From assembly GCF_016863295.1 (NCBI RefSeq), contig NZ_BOOP01000022.1:62001-126000 (forward strand): 64,000 bases of DNA, written 5' to 3'. The notes beneath the pieces are model-generated. The model saw only the letters and a program-made list of their open reading frames with translations, had not been told where the DNA came from and searched no databases. The position numbers and the translations under genes are program-made. Shown piece by piece: positions 3,553 through 19,698 of the stretch. Numbering within the stretch: the stretch's first letter is position 1; each line of letters starts with the position of its first letter. Source of the stretch: Planotetraspora phitsanulokensis. GTDB taxonomy: Bacteria > Actinomycetota > Actinomycetes > Streptosporangiales > Streptosporangiaceae.

Positions 3553-4152
3553 ATGAAGAGGTCGCTCAAGGTCTGGGCCGCGGCAGCCGGAATCGCCGCG
3601 GTGTCGTTGACCGGGTGCTCCGGCTCCTCCGGATCCGCCGCCTCGGGATCCGCCGCCTACGGGCAGAACGCCGCCGCCGTGCCCGCCGCGGACAAGGCAG
3701 GTCACAACGACGCCGACGTCCGCTTCTCCCAGCAGATGATCCCGCACCACTGGCAGGCCATCCAGATCGCCGCGCTCGCGTCCGAACGCGGGTCCGATGC
3801 CTATGTGAAGAGCCTCGCCAAGGAGATCACCGAGCATGAGGCCGCCGACATCCGGGTGATGTCCGGGTGGTTGCGATCCTGGCAGGTCGAGGTGCCGACC
3901 GGAGACATCGACATGGGGCACGACATGCCGGGGATGATCTCCAAGACGCAGATCCTGGCGCTGGAGGGCCGGTCCGGCGCCGACTTCGACCGCTTGTGGC
4001 TCTCGGTCCTGGCCAAACATCTCGACGCCGGCGTCGCCATGGCCGAGGAGGTCGCCGGCTCGGGTGAGCACCAGGGGACCAAGGACCTCGCCGAAAAGAC
4101 CGTCAAGACGCAGCGCGCCCAGATCGAGCAGATCGTCGACCACCTTCCCTAG
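3553..4152 (+). CDS. DUF305 lipoprotein
   Basis: A 199-residue protein. A signal peptide ends in the lipobox LTGC (Cys at about residue 22), followed by a Ser/Gly/Ala-rich linker and a DUF305 domain. The domain shows the family pattern DVRFSQQMIPHHWQAIQIA near residue 55, the second half containing HEAADIRVM and a Met/His-rich loop DMGHDMPGM. The DUF305 fold is a ferritin-like helical bundle; the His/Met residues suggest a metal role (inference), but no function is proven. GAGG lies 9 nt before ATG. It converges with the GH15 gene, leaving only 7 bp between the stops. The 288 bp upstream (3265-3552) holds no gene. Confidence 0.88.
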   Translation: MKRSLKVWAAAAGIAAVSLTGCSGSSGSAASGSAAYGQNAAAVPAADKAGHNDADVRFSQQMIPHHWQAIQIAALASERGSDAYVKSLAKEITEHEAADIRVMSGWLRSWQVEVPTGDIDMGHDMPGMISKTQILALEGRSGADFDRLWLSVLAKHLDAGVAMAEEVAGSGEHQGTKDLAEKTVKTQRAQIEQIVDHLP

Positions 4153-14678: not shown

Positions 14679-15419
14679 TCAGACGCCCACAGCGGTGGGA
14701 ACGCCGGCGGTCCGCCTGCCGAGGGCACGGTCGGTGAGACCGCCGAACAACAGGCCCAGCGTCCCCCACACCGTCAGCTGGATGGCCAGCGAGGCCAGCC
14801 GGAAGCGCCACAACACGGTCGCCGAGAAATCACCCGGAACCTCGTTCACCTCCGGCATCACCACATAGGTGATCCCGATGATGACGGCGAAGACTCCCAC
14901 GGCCGCCAGGGTGGCGTTCCACCCGCCGAGCCGCGGCGCGAGCCGGCGGCCCGCATACAGCGCGACGGCGGTCGTGAGCAGGCTCAGCAGGATCATCGTG
15001 ACGTACAGCGTGGTGCGGGAGCCGATGGTGTCCTCGCTCCCTACCGCGGGCGGGTTGGGCGGGTACTTCAGGAACGGGACGACATAGATCACGGCGAAGC
15101 CGACCAGCGCCACCAGCGCCGCGGTCGTCCGAGGCCGGAAATCTCCGATCCGGCCGTGCGCGAACGCGAACACGATGGAGAACAACCCGCCGAAGGCCAC
15201 GCCGTACACGACGAGAGCGGTGATCAGGCCGAGGGTCTCCTGAACGGTCCGGCTGAACACCTCGTGATCATGCGCCTCGCCGGCCGCGGCCGCCTTGGCC
15301 TCCTCGAACGAGATGGCCAGAGCGACCTGGGGCTCACCGAGGAACCACGCGACGACGTACGCGAGCGCGGCCGCGGCAAGCCCGACGAGCATGCCGCGGA
15401 TCAGCAGAGATCGCATCAT
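14679..15419 (-). CDS. cbtA: CbtA-type cobalt transporter subunit
   Basis: A 246-residue polytopic membrane protein with about five or six helices. It starts MMRSLLIRGMLVGLAAAALAY and has the family features EAHDHEVFSR in the first loop, QETLGLITALVVYGVAFGGLF, FLKYPPNPPAVG and YVTMILLSLLTTA. CbtA with the one-helix CbtB forms a cobalt uptake system regulated by B12 riboswitches (family knowledge). It is encoded 18 nt downstream of cbtB, both behind the cobalamin riboswitch at 15691-15838. It should import cobalt for cobalamin synthesis. Confidence 0.88.
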   Translation of the reverse strand: MMRSLLIRGMLVGLAAAALAYVVAWFLGEPQVALAISFEEAKAAAAGEAHDHEVFSRTVQETLGLITALVVYGVAFGGLFSIVFAFAHGRIGDFRPRTTAALVALVGFAVIYVVPFLKYPPNPPAVGSEDTIGSRTTLYVTMILLSLLTTAVALYAGRRLAPRLGGWNATLAAVGVFAVIIGITYVVMPEVNEVPGDFSATVLWRFRLASLAIQLTVWGTLGLLFGGLTDRALGRRTAGVPTAVGV

Positions 15420-15437
15420 GGGAGCGAGTCCCGGCCG

Positions 15438-15650
15438 TCAGTGGCAGGGGAAGCCGAGAAGGTGACGTCCGTCGTGGACGAATTCGTGGACGGTGCTGCC
15501 GCTGATGATCGACGTGGCCCCCTGCTCGGCGCCGACGAAGTACAGCAGAGCCAGTCCGAGAACCGCGGCGAACACGGCCCAGGGAACGATCTCGCGAACC
15601 GGGATGCGGATCGGAGCGGTCTTGCCTGAAGGAACGGCGACGTTGGCCAC
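15438..15650 (-). CDS. cbtB: CbtB-type cobalt transporter small subunit
   Basis: A 70-residue protein: a single transmembrane helix VPWAVFAAVLGLALLYFVGA and the metal-binding C-terminus VHEFVHDGRHLLGFPCH, whose four His and one Cys are characteristic of CbtB. GTG at 15650 is chosen because AGAGGAG lies 6 nt upstream; a longer reading frame begins at 15671 but lacks such a site. The leader contains a cobalamin riboswitch, and a hairpin (15661-15680) ends right at the ribosome binding site, so control is probably translational. Confidence 0.88.
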   Translation of the reverse strand: MANVAVPSGKTAPIRIPVREIVPWAVFAAVLGLALLYFVGAEQGATSIISGSTVHEFVHDGRHLLGFPCH

Positions 15651-15690
15651 GGTTTCTCCTCTCGGGGTCACGCGCCCCGACGACGGAGGA

Positions 15691-15838
15691 CAACGGGTCA
15701 GTCTTCTGACTCCCGAGCGCCGCTCTTCCCTGGCCGTTTCCGCCTGTCACAACGGTGGCCACATCGGGGGAGAGGGACTCTCGGTCACAGCGGCGGGACC
15801 GTCCTGGAATCGCACCAGGTTCCTGCACACCGTTGCCT
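15691..15838 (-). promoter_or_regulatory. Cobalamin (B12) riboswitch of cbtBA
   Basis: On the minus strand the conserved cobalamin elements appear in order: the closing stem arm GGCAACGG (near 15838), the CCTGGTGCGATTCCAGG hairpin, the core ACGGTCCCGCCGCTGTGA, a GCCACCGTTGTGACAGGCG segment, GGGAAGAGCGGCG, and the B12 box equivalent AGTCAGAAGACTGACC followed by the closing arm CCGTTG (near 15691). The downstream hairpin at 15661-15680 abuts the cbtB ribosome binding site and may be the expression platform. High cobalamin should reduce CbtBA synthesis. Confidence 0.9.
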
Positions 15839-15978
15839 CAATGTTGATTTGTCCCCCAGAGACTCCCTCCTTCCTGCTTGTGACGTCAAGGCCACTTTGA
15901 ACAATGTCTTCCGAATCACGGTCATCCATCCCTGAAGCCACCTGCCCCACGCAGTGGCAGGAAGGTAGGCTGATCGTC

Positions 15979-16020
15979 ATGCATCGTGTGTCGTGTCCGA
16001 GTCGGTGGCGCTCCGCTTAG
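15979..16020 (+). CDS. Tryptophan leader peptide of the attenuator
   Basis: ATG at 15979 opens a 13-codon ORF, MHRVSCPSRWRSA, ending in TAG at 16018-16020, with AGGAAGGTAGG a short way upstream. The only Trp codon (codon 10, TGG at 16006-16008) sits at the foot of the first hairpin. Stalling there would change the folding of the downstream RNA. The peptide itself is unlikely to have a function. Confidence 0.8.
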   Translation: MHRVSCPSRWRSA

Positions 16021-16079
16021 GAGCGGCCATCTCTCACGCACGACACAGGGCCGTTCGGATGGACGGCCCTTCGTGTTTT
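15987..16079 (+). promoter_or_regulatory. Ribosome-mediated transcription attenuator of the auxiliary trpS
   Basis: Segments visible: hairpin 1 pairs 16006-16014 with 16020-16029 (one bulged G) and contains the Trp codon. A terminator pairs AGGGCCGT (16047-16054) with ACGGCCCT (16063-16070), followed by TCGTGTTTT. An alternative antiterminator pairs GAGCGGCC (16021-16028) with GGCCGTTC (16049-16056), excluding both. An outer stem TGTGTCGTG (15987-15995) / CACGACACA (16039-16047) is also possible. With scarce Trp-tRNA, a ribosome paused at 16006 would block hairpin 1 and favour read-through. The layout resembles that described for S. coelicolor trpRS1. Confidence 0.82.
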
Positions 16080-16144
16080 CTCCCTGGATGAGCGGTCGCC
16101 GTCGGAACCGGCCCTGACCCCGTCTCGCCCTTCAGGAGAACCAC

Positions 16145-17233
16145 ATGATCACCGACCTAGACGTCGACCGTCCGGCCCTCATCGACGGGATCTCCACCGT
16201 CCAACGCCGCAGTGCCGCTCTGGAGGAACTGATCCGTCAGGACCCTGGGCGGTTCCGCGTGCTCACCGGCGACCGCCCGACGGGCCGGCTGCACCTGGGG
16301 CACTACTTCGGCACCCTCCACAACCGTGTGCGCCTGCAGAACCTGGGAGTGGAGATGCTGGTGATCATCGCGGACTACCAGGTCCTGACCGATCGTGACG
16401 TCGCCGACCGCCTCCCCGAACACGTCGAGGACCTGGTGCTGGACTACCTGGCCGTCGGCGTGGACCCGGAACGGGCCACGATCTTCACCCACAGCGCGAT
16501 TCCGGCGCTCAACCAGCTGCTCCTGCCGTTCCTCAGCCTGATCACAGTCGCCGAACTCGGCCGCAATCCCACCGTCAAGGAGGAGATCGCCCAGTCGCAG
16601 CAGTCCTCAGTCAGCGGACTGATGTTCACCTACCCGGCGCACCAGGCCGCCGACATCCTGTTCTGCAAGGCCAACCTGGTGCCGGTCGGGCAGGACCAAC
16701 TGCCTCATCTTGAGGTCACGCGCACCATCGCCCGCCGATTCAACAGCCGCTACGGAAACGGCGTCCAGGTCTTCCCCGAGCCCGACGCCCTGCTGTCGTC
16801 GGCTCCGCTGCTGCTGGGGACCGACGGCACCAAGATGAGCAAGAGCCGCGGCAACGCCATCGCCCTCGCCGCGAGCGCCGACGACACCGCCAGGTCGATA
16901 CGCACCGCGAAGACCGACTCCCACCGCCACATCACCTACGAGCCCGACACGCGGCCAGAGGTCTCCAGCCTGGTCCTCCTGGCCGCACTGTGCCTGGACC
17001 GCGATCCCCACCAGGTCGCCGAGGACATCGGCGGCGGGGGAGCGGCGGCGTTGAAGGCGACCGTCACCGAGGCGGTCAACGCCTACCTGGCTCCCATCCG
17101 GGAGCGCCGCGCCCTGTACGCCCAGGACCGCGGTCACATCCGGAAGGTGCTGCGTGACGGCAACGAACGGGCCGCGGCCATCGCGGAGACGACCCTCACC
17201 GAAGTGCGGACCACGATGAACGCCCTCTACTGA
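16145..17233 (+). CDS. trpS: Tryptophanyl-tRNA synthetase, auxiliary (indolmycin-resistant type)
   Basis: A 362-residue class I synthetase that charges tRNA-Trp. The HIGH motif is GRLHLGHYFG (about 47-56) and the KMSKS motif is TKMSKSRGNA (about 230-239). The strand before HIGH reads TGDRPTG, whereas housekeeping bacterial enzymes have G-x-Q-P-S-G; loss of that Gln, which contacts tryptophan or indolmycin, is a mark of the auxiliary resistant group. AGGAGA lies 6 nt before ATG. Expression is under the attenuator just upstream, so it should be induced by low charged tRNA-Trp or by inhibition of the main enzyme. A housekeeping copy is expected elsewhere. Confidence 0.88.
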   Translation: MITDLDVDRPALIDGISTVQRRSAALEELIRQDPGRFRVLTGDRPTGRLHLGHYFGTLHNRVRLQNLGVEMLVIIADYQVLTDRDVADRLPEHVEDLVLDYLAVGVDPERATIFTHSAIPALNQLLLPFLSLITVAELGRNPTVKEEIAQSQQSSVSGLMFTYPAHQAADILFCKANLVPVGQDQLPHLEVTRTIARRFNSRYGNGVQVFPEPDALLSSAPLLLGTDGTKMSKSRGNAIALAASADDTARSIRTAKTDSHRHITYEPDTRPEVSSLVLLAALCLDRDPHQVAEDIGGGGAAALKATVTEAVNAYLAPIRERRALYAQDRGHIRKVLRDGNERAAAIAETTLTEVRTTMNALY

Positions 17234-17273
17234 ACAGACTCATCCGCCCCGGGAACACGGGGATACTGGATCG

Positions 17274-17771
17274 GTGACCCGCCCTCTCCTGCTCCTCGAC
17301 GTGGACGGCGTCCTCAATCCCTTCGCCGCGGCTCGGTGCCCCCCGGGATTCGACGAGTACGCGATGTTCGACGACGAGGAGCCAGTGCGCCTCTGCCCAG
17401 AGCACGGACGGTGGATCTCCGAGCTTGGGCGGCTGTGCGACGTGGCATGGGCCACGGGCTGGAACGACAACGCGAACCGTCTCCTGGCGCCCGTTCTCGG
17501 GATTCCCCCCTTGCCGGTGTTGGCCATGCCGGCGCCGTTCCAGCCCCGGGACAAGGTGCCGGTCATCGCCGCCGCGGCGGCGGGACGTCCCGCCGTGTGG
17601 ATCGACGACGCCCATACGCCTGAAGCCCTCGACTGGGCCGGAGGGCGTCGCGAGCCCACGCTGCTGGTCGCGATCGATCCCGCGATCGGGCTGGGCCGTA
17701 CAGCCGTCGACGAGGTTCTGAGGTGGGTTACCGAGCTTGACCGCCCGCCGCGTCCAGCGCCCCCGGCCTGA
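17274..17771 (+). CDS. HAD-domain protein of unknown substrate
   Basis: A 165-residue protein starting with GTG. LLLLDVDGVLNPF (about 5-17) is HAD motif I (D-x-D-G-V), and WIDDAHTPEAL (about 107-117) is the acidic motif IV; WATGWNDNAN (about 61-70) occupies the motif II position. There is almost no cap domain. Such short HAD proteins are widespread in actinomycetes without known substrate. It follows trpS by 40 nt and could be co-transcribed. Confidence 0.75.
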   Translation: MTRPLLLLDVDGVLNPFAAARCPPGFDEYAMFDDEEPVRLCPEHGRWISELGRLCDVAWATGWNDNANRLLAPVLGIPPLPVLAMPAPFQPRDKVPVIAAAAAGRPAVWIDDAHTPEALDWAGGRREPTLLVAIDPAIGLGRTAVDEVLRWVTELDRPPRPAPPA

Positions 17772-19621: not shown

Positions 19622-19698
19622 TGGTGGGGCTACCAGGACTTGAACCTGGGACCTCTTCCTTATCAGGGAAGCGCTCTAACCGTCTGAGCTATAGCCCC
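19622..19698 (-). tRNA. tRNA-Ile (anticodon GAU)
   Basis: A 77-nt tRNA including an encoded CCA. Acceptor GGGGCTA pairs with TAGCCCC, D arm GCTC-AGACGGTTA-GAGC, anticodon stem CTTCC/GGAAG with loop CTGATAA (anticodon GAT), T arm CCAGG-TTCAAGT-CCTGG. It lies downstream of the DUF3566 gene as in many actinobacteria, but the usual neighbour tRNA-Ala is not found nearby. Confidence 0.97.

Follow-up and report, generated by a model that had tools for sequence, protein, structure and literature searches.

In the trp operon attenuator of Escherichia coli, the leader RNA can pair as segments 1:2, 2:3, or 3:4, the Trp codons lie in segment 1, and the stop codon lets a finishing ribosome cover segment 2. 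Vecchione and Sello reportedly described in 2010 that the Streptomyces coelicolor gene for an auxiliary, antibiotic-resistant tryptophanyl-tRNA synthetase (TrpRS), trpRS1, is under ribosome-mediated transcriptional attenuation. For Streptomyces avermitilis trpS2, a classical attenuator was predicted in 2005, with this single species given for trpS in the available part of the report (PMC1262725). RNA-seq published in 2021 placed trpL2 ahead of trpS in Streptomyces lividans TK24, and the accessible text describes this leader as leaderless and 13 amino acids long, containing a single Trp and lacking a U-rich stretch, in a species whose consensus -10 box is TAnnnT (PMC8079986).

The locus analyzed here lies in a 64,000-nucleotide stretch of the Planotetraspora phitsanulokensis genome (contig NZ_BOOP01000022.1; hereafter the window). 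Judging from its sequence, we consider it likely, with a probability of roughly 0.88, that an auxiliary trpS gene is under the control of a ribosome-mediated transcription attenuator of the classical type. The features on which this reading draws, and the genes on either side, are as follows.

14679-15419 and 15438-15671, minus strand: cobalt-transporter genes CbtA (PF09490) and CbtB (PF09489), respectively
15966-15971, plus strand: candidate -10 box, TAGGCT, at a 7-base spacing from the leader start codon
15979-16020, plus strand: leader open reading frame (ORF), 13 codons and TAG, read from the sequence and from relatives
15987-16047, plus strand: outer stem, 15987-15996 with 16038-16047, from pairs, folding, and a conserved five-pair core
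16004-16031, plus strand: hairpin 1 (segments 1:2), 16004-16009 with 16026-16031 and 16010-16014 with 16020-16024, from pairs and folding
16021-16056, plus strand: antiterminator (segments 2:3), 16021-16028 with 16049-16056, from pairs and covariation
16047-16079, plus strand: terminator hairpin (segments 3:4), 16047-16056 with 16061-16070, and an interrupted T-run, from sequence and folding
16145-17233, plus strand: auxiliary trpS, 362 amino acids, TIGR00233 above cut-off and PF00579

This arrangement resembles the E. coli trp attenuator in its segment logic, in having its Trp codon in segment 1, and in the placement of its stop codon. The two differ in that trpL of E. coli carries a ribosome-binding site and a pair of adjacent Trp codons and stands before biosynthesis genes, whereas the window has a probably leaderless start, one Trp codon, and a synthetase gene.

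The leader peptide of the window is MHRVSCPSRWRSA, encoded from the ATG at 15979 to the TAG at 16018-16020, and the 13-codon leader with one Trp codon that the initial annotation had claimed is therefore present. Its sole TGG is codon 10 (16006-16008). That annotation had put the Trp codon at the base of hairpin 1; the hairpin is present, but the codon sits inside the 5' strand of its lower part (16004-16009/16026-16031) and not only at the base. The preceding codon 9 reads CGG, where most relatives carry TGG.

The gene behind the leader charges the same amino acid as its control codon specifies (TIGR00233 above cut-off), and among solved structures its product matches 1yi8 and 2a4m best, of which 2a4m carries the name "Tryptophanyl-tRNA synthetase II." Searching the window's own genome at the protein level found two TrpRS places, and a Pfam search found three, the third of which (L001) is presumably a tyrosyl-tRNA synthetase gene. 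The second TrpRS gene (G000:C26, locus L002) is 33% identical to the window enzyme (96/291 positions), and the RNA model described below has no match at its locus at E values up to 1. Because the genome has this second TrpRS gene, the label "auxiliary" that trpS had been given holds. At the place where the second TrpRS has IADLHALT, the auxiliary enzyme (16145-17233) has IADYQVLT; a His in this motif has reportedly been associated, in a different TrpRS, with sensitivity to indolmycin. The surroundings hold other features of their own. A 165-amino-acid ORF after trpS (17274-17771, plus strand) resembles HAD_SAK_2 (PF18143; 25.4 bits, under the cut-off of 27.5), and a tRNA gene lies at 19625-19698 on the minus strand (RF00005, 76.4 bits). 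Upstream of the CbtB and CbtA genes, a cobalamin riboswitch (RF00174, 61.3 bits; 15679-15848, minus strand) is oriented divergently from the trpS attenuator, so that two RNA switches stand back to back.

We compared the locus with those of trpS relatives, of which a search confirmed 343 and the best 80 were examined. Among these best 80 of 343, the closest named relatives come from Planotetraspora species, with up to 91% identity in a comparison that may omit records of the window's own genome. A pattern found the element upstream of 69 of the 80 loci, and these together with the window form a 70-row alignment (A1); of the other 11 loci, 9 were dropped because their best match looked wrong on inspection and 2 because they had no match. 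Two of the dropped loci nevertheless carry the element, and the covariance model made from the alignment (R1) scores them at 71.5 bits (L080) and 92.2 bits (L082); it gave a weak match at L009 (23.9 bits). The remaining 8 of the 80 loci (L030, L035, L036, L041, L054, L066, L072, and L077) had no R1 match at E values up to 1 in the stretch examined, which for L036 held only 249 bases upstream.

A Trp codon is present at codon 9 or 10 of a short ORF in every one of the 70 rows. Codons 9 and 10 read TGG TGG in 67 rows, CGG TGG in 2 (the window and L058), and TGG CGG in 1 (L051), which puts Trp at codon 10 in 69/70 and at codon 9 in 68/70, a conservation that is partly by construction, as the selection pattern covered the Trp codons with the start of the hairpin, and the terminator core. 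The -10 box, start codon, ORF length, stop codon, and outer stem all lie outside that pattern, in rows cut relative to the Trp motif. The leader starts with ATG in 67/70 rows and with GTG in the other three (L061, L064, and L070), and it is 13 codons long in 68/70, the exceptions being L012 with 12 and L081 with 15, both with starts moved by hand. In all 70 rows the stop is TAG, three codons past codon 10.

Hairpin 1, the antiterminator, and the terminator share strands and are thus mutually exclusive. The outer stem has nine Watson-Crick pairs (15987-15995/16039-16047) and a T-G pair at 15996/16038. The antiterminator was claimed as an 8-bp helix exclusive with both hairpins, and its eight pairs, one of them G-U, are indeed found, on strands taken from both. 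A search for the hairpin-1 sequence that allowed up to three mismatches hit a single place in the window and nothing in any of 100 shuffles, and no tandem repeats were found in 15000-17500.

Covariation in the alignment argues for the first helices of the switch, in figures that we read as support for structure and not as probabilities, the shuffles having kept the relatedness of the rows. Across the outer-stem core and hairpin 1, 97.3% of cells are paired, and 19 cells changed on both sides compared to 4.3 after shuffling (0/500 as high), while the number of pairs with two-sided change was 5 against 2.7 (18/500). Within this total, the five-pair outer-stem core is paired in 94.0% of cells, with two-sided changes in 3/5 pairs, and the 10-pair conserved version of hairpin 1 is paired in 99.0%, with two-sided changes in 2/10. 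The antiterminator is paired in 97.8% of cells and shows 7 two-sided changed cells versus 0.9 when shuffled (0/500); in L047 its core carries one change from G-C to A-U. Further pair types showed no excess over shuffles, either in the outer stem with hairpin 1 (274/500) or in the antiterminator (326/500). The terminator is nearly invariant: its nine conserved pairs, part of a region that the selection pattern covered, are paired in 99.4% of cells, only 1 cell changed on both sides, and a control register slid by +3 covaried more than the real one (0.086 versus 0.069).

Folding gave a consistent picture for the leader RNA. The 102 nucleotides of 15979-16080 fold at -56.9 kcal/mol, whereas shuffled versions average -36.4 (z = -5.7; 0/200 as stable), into a long arm that joins the outer stem to hairpin 1, with the terminator stem behind it; in this minimum free energy fold the outer stem spans 15988-15996/16038-16046. 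This stability, the shuffle result for the hairpin-1 sequence, and the recurrence before trpS all speak against a chance occurrence. When each row was folded singly, 67/70 had four or more leader bases paired past hairpin 1 (exceptions L020, L064, and L068), a loose measure, as the register is free to differ between rows.

A ribosome was simulated by masking the RNA, with footprint edges assumed from general ribosome geometry. In nascent RNA ending at 16056, hairpin 1 and the outer stem formed with a probability of 1.0 when no ribosome was present, and the antiterminator formed with a probability of 1.0 when the ribosome was stalled at codon 9 or 10. With the ribosome on the stop codon, neither hairpin 1 and the outer stem nor the antiterminator appeared. 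Under these assumed footprint edges, a stall thus frees segment 2 and a ribosome on the stop codon masks it, at a TAG whose position is constant in 70/70 rows. When the full-length leader was folded at equilibrium, the terminator prevailed in all three states tried, the stalled ribosome included, and no antiterminator formed. Because the terminator wins at equilibrium on the full leader, the decision of the switch would have to fall kinetically, during transcription.

Taken together, the leader peptide, stop position, and competing helices conserved across actinobacteria, and the simulated-ribosome folds agree with the claim that trpS is regulated by ribosome-mediated trp attenuation, and we infer that the switch would work as follows. 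Transcription would start at the AUG of the leader, with a ribosome loading at the 5' end of the RNA. When charged tRNA-Trp runs short, through starvation or because the housekeeping TrpRS is inhibited, this ribosome would stall at codon 10 and open the outer stem and hairpin 1, leaving 16021-16028 free to pair with 16049-16056; the antiterminator so formed would block the terminator, and trpS would be transcribed. When Trp-tRNA is plentiful, the ribosome would get to the UAG and cover 16021-16030, or would leave and let hairpin 1 reform. If no ribosome has loaded, hairpin 1 and the outer stem should form, and in this case as in the plentiful one, 16047-16070 would fold as the terminator. The outer stem would then help lock hairpin 1 in the absence of a ribosome, making termination the default state.

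Where transcription begins bears on how this switch would be entered. A TAnnnT motif precedes the leader start in 69/70 rows, at a spacing of 6 bases in 57 and 7 in 12, compared to a mean of 0.5 rows after shuffling the upstream 60 bases, a control that preserves single-base composition only; for this count, the start of L012 was moved by hand one codon later and that of L081 two codons earlier. The one row outside the count, L037, is too short upstream, but in its alignment row TACCCT stands 6 bases ahead of the start codon. The column frequencies of the upstream sequence gave no clear -35 consensus. A -10 box at its usual spacing puts the transcription start shortly downstream, and the predicted start is on this account 15978-15979, at either the first base of the ATG or the base preceding it. 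Transcription therefore probably begins at the leader start codon, making the message leaderless.

This raises the potential that leaderless initiation is obligatory in a broad actinobacterial RNA family that has no Rfam entry, and that the outer stem serves as a second gate, one that senses initiation. Were that true, transcription would begin with the start codon itself, the ribosome would have to bind before the outer stem could close, and the switch would read both the charging of tRNA-Trp and the supply of ribosomes that can initiate at a bare AUG at the 5' end. We regard this extension as tentative and rather doubtful, but because the -10 box stands at leaderless spacing in 69/70 rows, obligatory leaderless initiation is directly testable. 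The outer stem had been proposed as a further switch. The stem itself exists, is conserved, and covaries, but it arises together with hairpin 1 in ribosome-free folds and both vanish under the simulated ribosome, so that an independent switch is not favored. From these folds, the outer stem looks like an extension of the pro-termination hairpin.

Alternatively, the attenuator may be decaying, with a two-Trp ancestor having lost one Trp codon and a poor T-run remaining, such that the leader now damps trpS constitutively and senses Trp poorly. Codon 9 of the window is CGG, whereas the close relatives L004-L006 have TGG there and thus two Trp codons, and the alignment suggests that the window leader probably lost one codon of an ancestral pair. 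The T-run is likewise interrupted: the terminator stem at 16047-16070 is present as first annotated, but the run that follows it, TTCGTGTTTT at 16070-16079, has 7 T of 10 and is weaker than a textbook one. Against decay, the element is otherwise intact, at 103 bits, and the trpS leader of S. lividans, as described in the accessible part of its report, also has one Trp and lacks a U-rich stretch (PMC8079986). We therefore consider decay improbable, and favor a working attenuator that responds to charged tRNA-Trp.

Either the leader peptide or the leader RNA released at the terminator could instead act in trans on other genes, as is said of the Sinorhizobium trp leader, with attenuation of trpS in cis being secondary. 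The -10 box predicts a leaderless transcript that would release a short structured RNA and could in principle supply such an agent, but the peptide differs between groups outside positions 9-12 (WWRS), which argues against a peptide with its own target, and we judge this explanation very improbable. Attenuation in cis remains our preferred reading over a T-box or other known riboswitch that senses tRNA-Trp or tryptophan directly with no translated leader, a proposal that is almost certainly wrong: the downstream gene does encode an aminoacyl-tRNA synthetase, a common T-box target in Firmicutes according to the available text of PMC1262725, but the conserved ORF, start, and stop speak for translation, and no family in Rfam release 15 reaches its gathering score over 15979-16080. 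At E values up to 10, the same Rfam search returned three matches, all to unrelated families far below their gathering scores.

R1 found one element in the window's own genome, at 103 bits, along with a chance-level match (L115; E = 0.17). At an E value of 0.001, and with stricter filters under which weak matches are lost, it matched 11/197 genomes of a class sample, the window's own included and four of the eleven weak at 27-39 bits, and 25/150 genomes from the genus of G081, one of them weak at 28 bits. One genome of that genus, G374, carries two strong copies (C89 and C104; 97.3 and 94.4 bits). Similar DNA occurred in 4/72,556 plasmid records. One is the 330-kb linear plasmid of Streptomyces sp. 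Mut1 (L126), with the element at 4001-4105 ahead of an annotated trpS, and because element and gene sit together there, the module can be plasmid-borne; the annotation tables of the other three show no genes at the matched places. Among the five R1 matches read outside the trpS set, no convincing leader could be read at L115, L122, or L124, and L123 has a Trp leader ahead of an ORF judged trpS-like by eye. At L125, around 1501-1630, a leader reading MIVVPTPWWRLL and a hairpin of the same kind precede an ORF that by eye resembles anthranilate synthase, which suggests that the same switch architecture may be used on Trp biosynthesis.

Set beside the described systems, the window comes closest to S. 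lividans trpL2. Both have a 13-residue peptide with Trp at position 10, a leaderless start (predicted in the window from the spacing of its -10 box), hairpins between leader and trpS, and no good U-run; the peptides differ outside the W-R pair, and the likeness is to the description in the available part of PMC8079986. As a back-translated pattern, the S. lividans leader was found in 0/392 sampled genomes of the genus of G081. For S. avermitilis trpS2, the resemblance, as far as the accessible text of PMC1262725 goes, is that of a predicted classical attenuator before an actinobacterial TrpRS gene. Going by the title alone, S. coelicolor trpRS1 joins an auxiliary TrpRS gene to ribosome-mediated attenuation, as we propose for the window.

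The window is thus a well-preserved further member of an attenuator kind already described in Streptomyces. Its single Trp codon, which the initial annotation presented as a special twist, is not a novelty, and neither is its leaderless start; both are already reported for trpL2 in the part of PMC8079986 available. Our set adds that the leader of this lineage has one Trp codon, that the outer stem covaries, and that the -10 box keeps its leaderless spacing in 69/70 rows, and it provides a covariance model for an element that has no match in Rfam release 15. In the accessible portions of PMC1262725 and PMC8079986, we found no statement of the covarying outer stem or the leaderless -10 box as conserved features. 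TrpRS1 is listed as indolmycin-resistant in the available part of PMC9437257. Auxiliary TrpRS genes can shield actinomycetes when the main enzyme is inhibited, and a conserved attenuator would explain how such a spare TrpRS stays off until it is needed.
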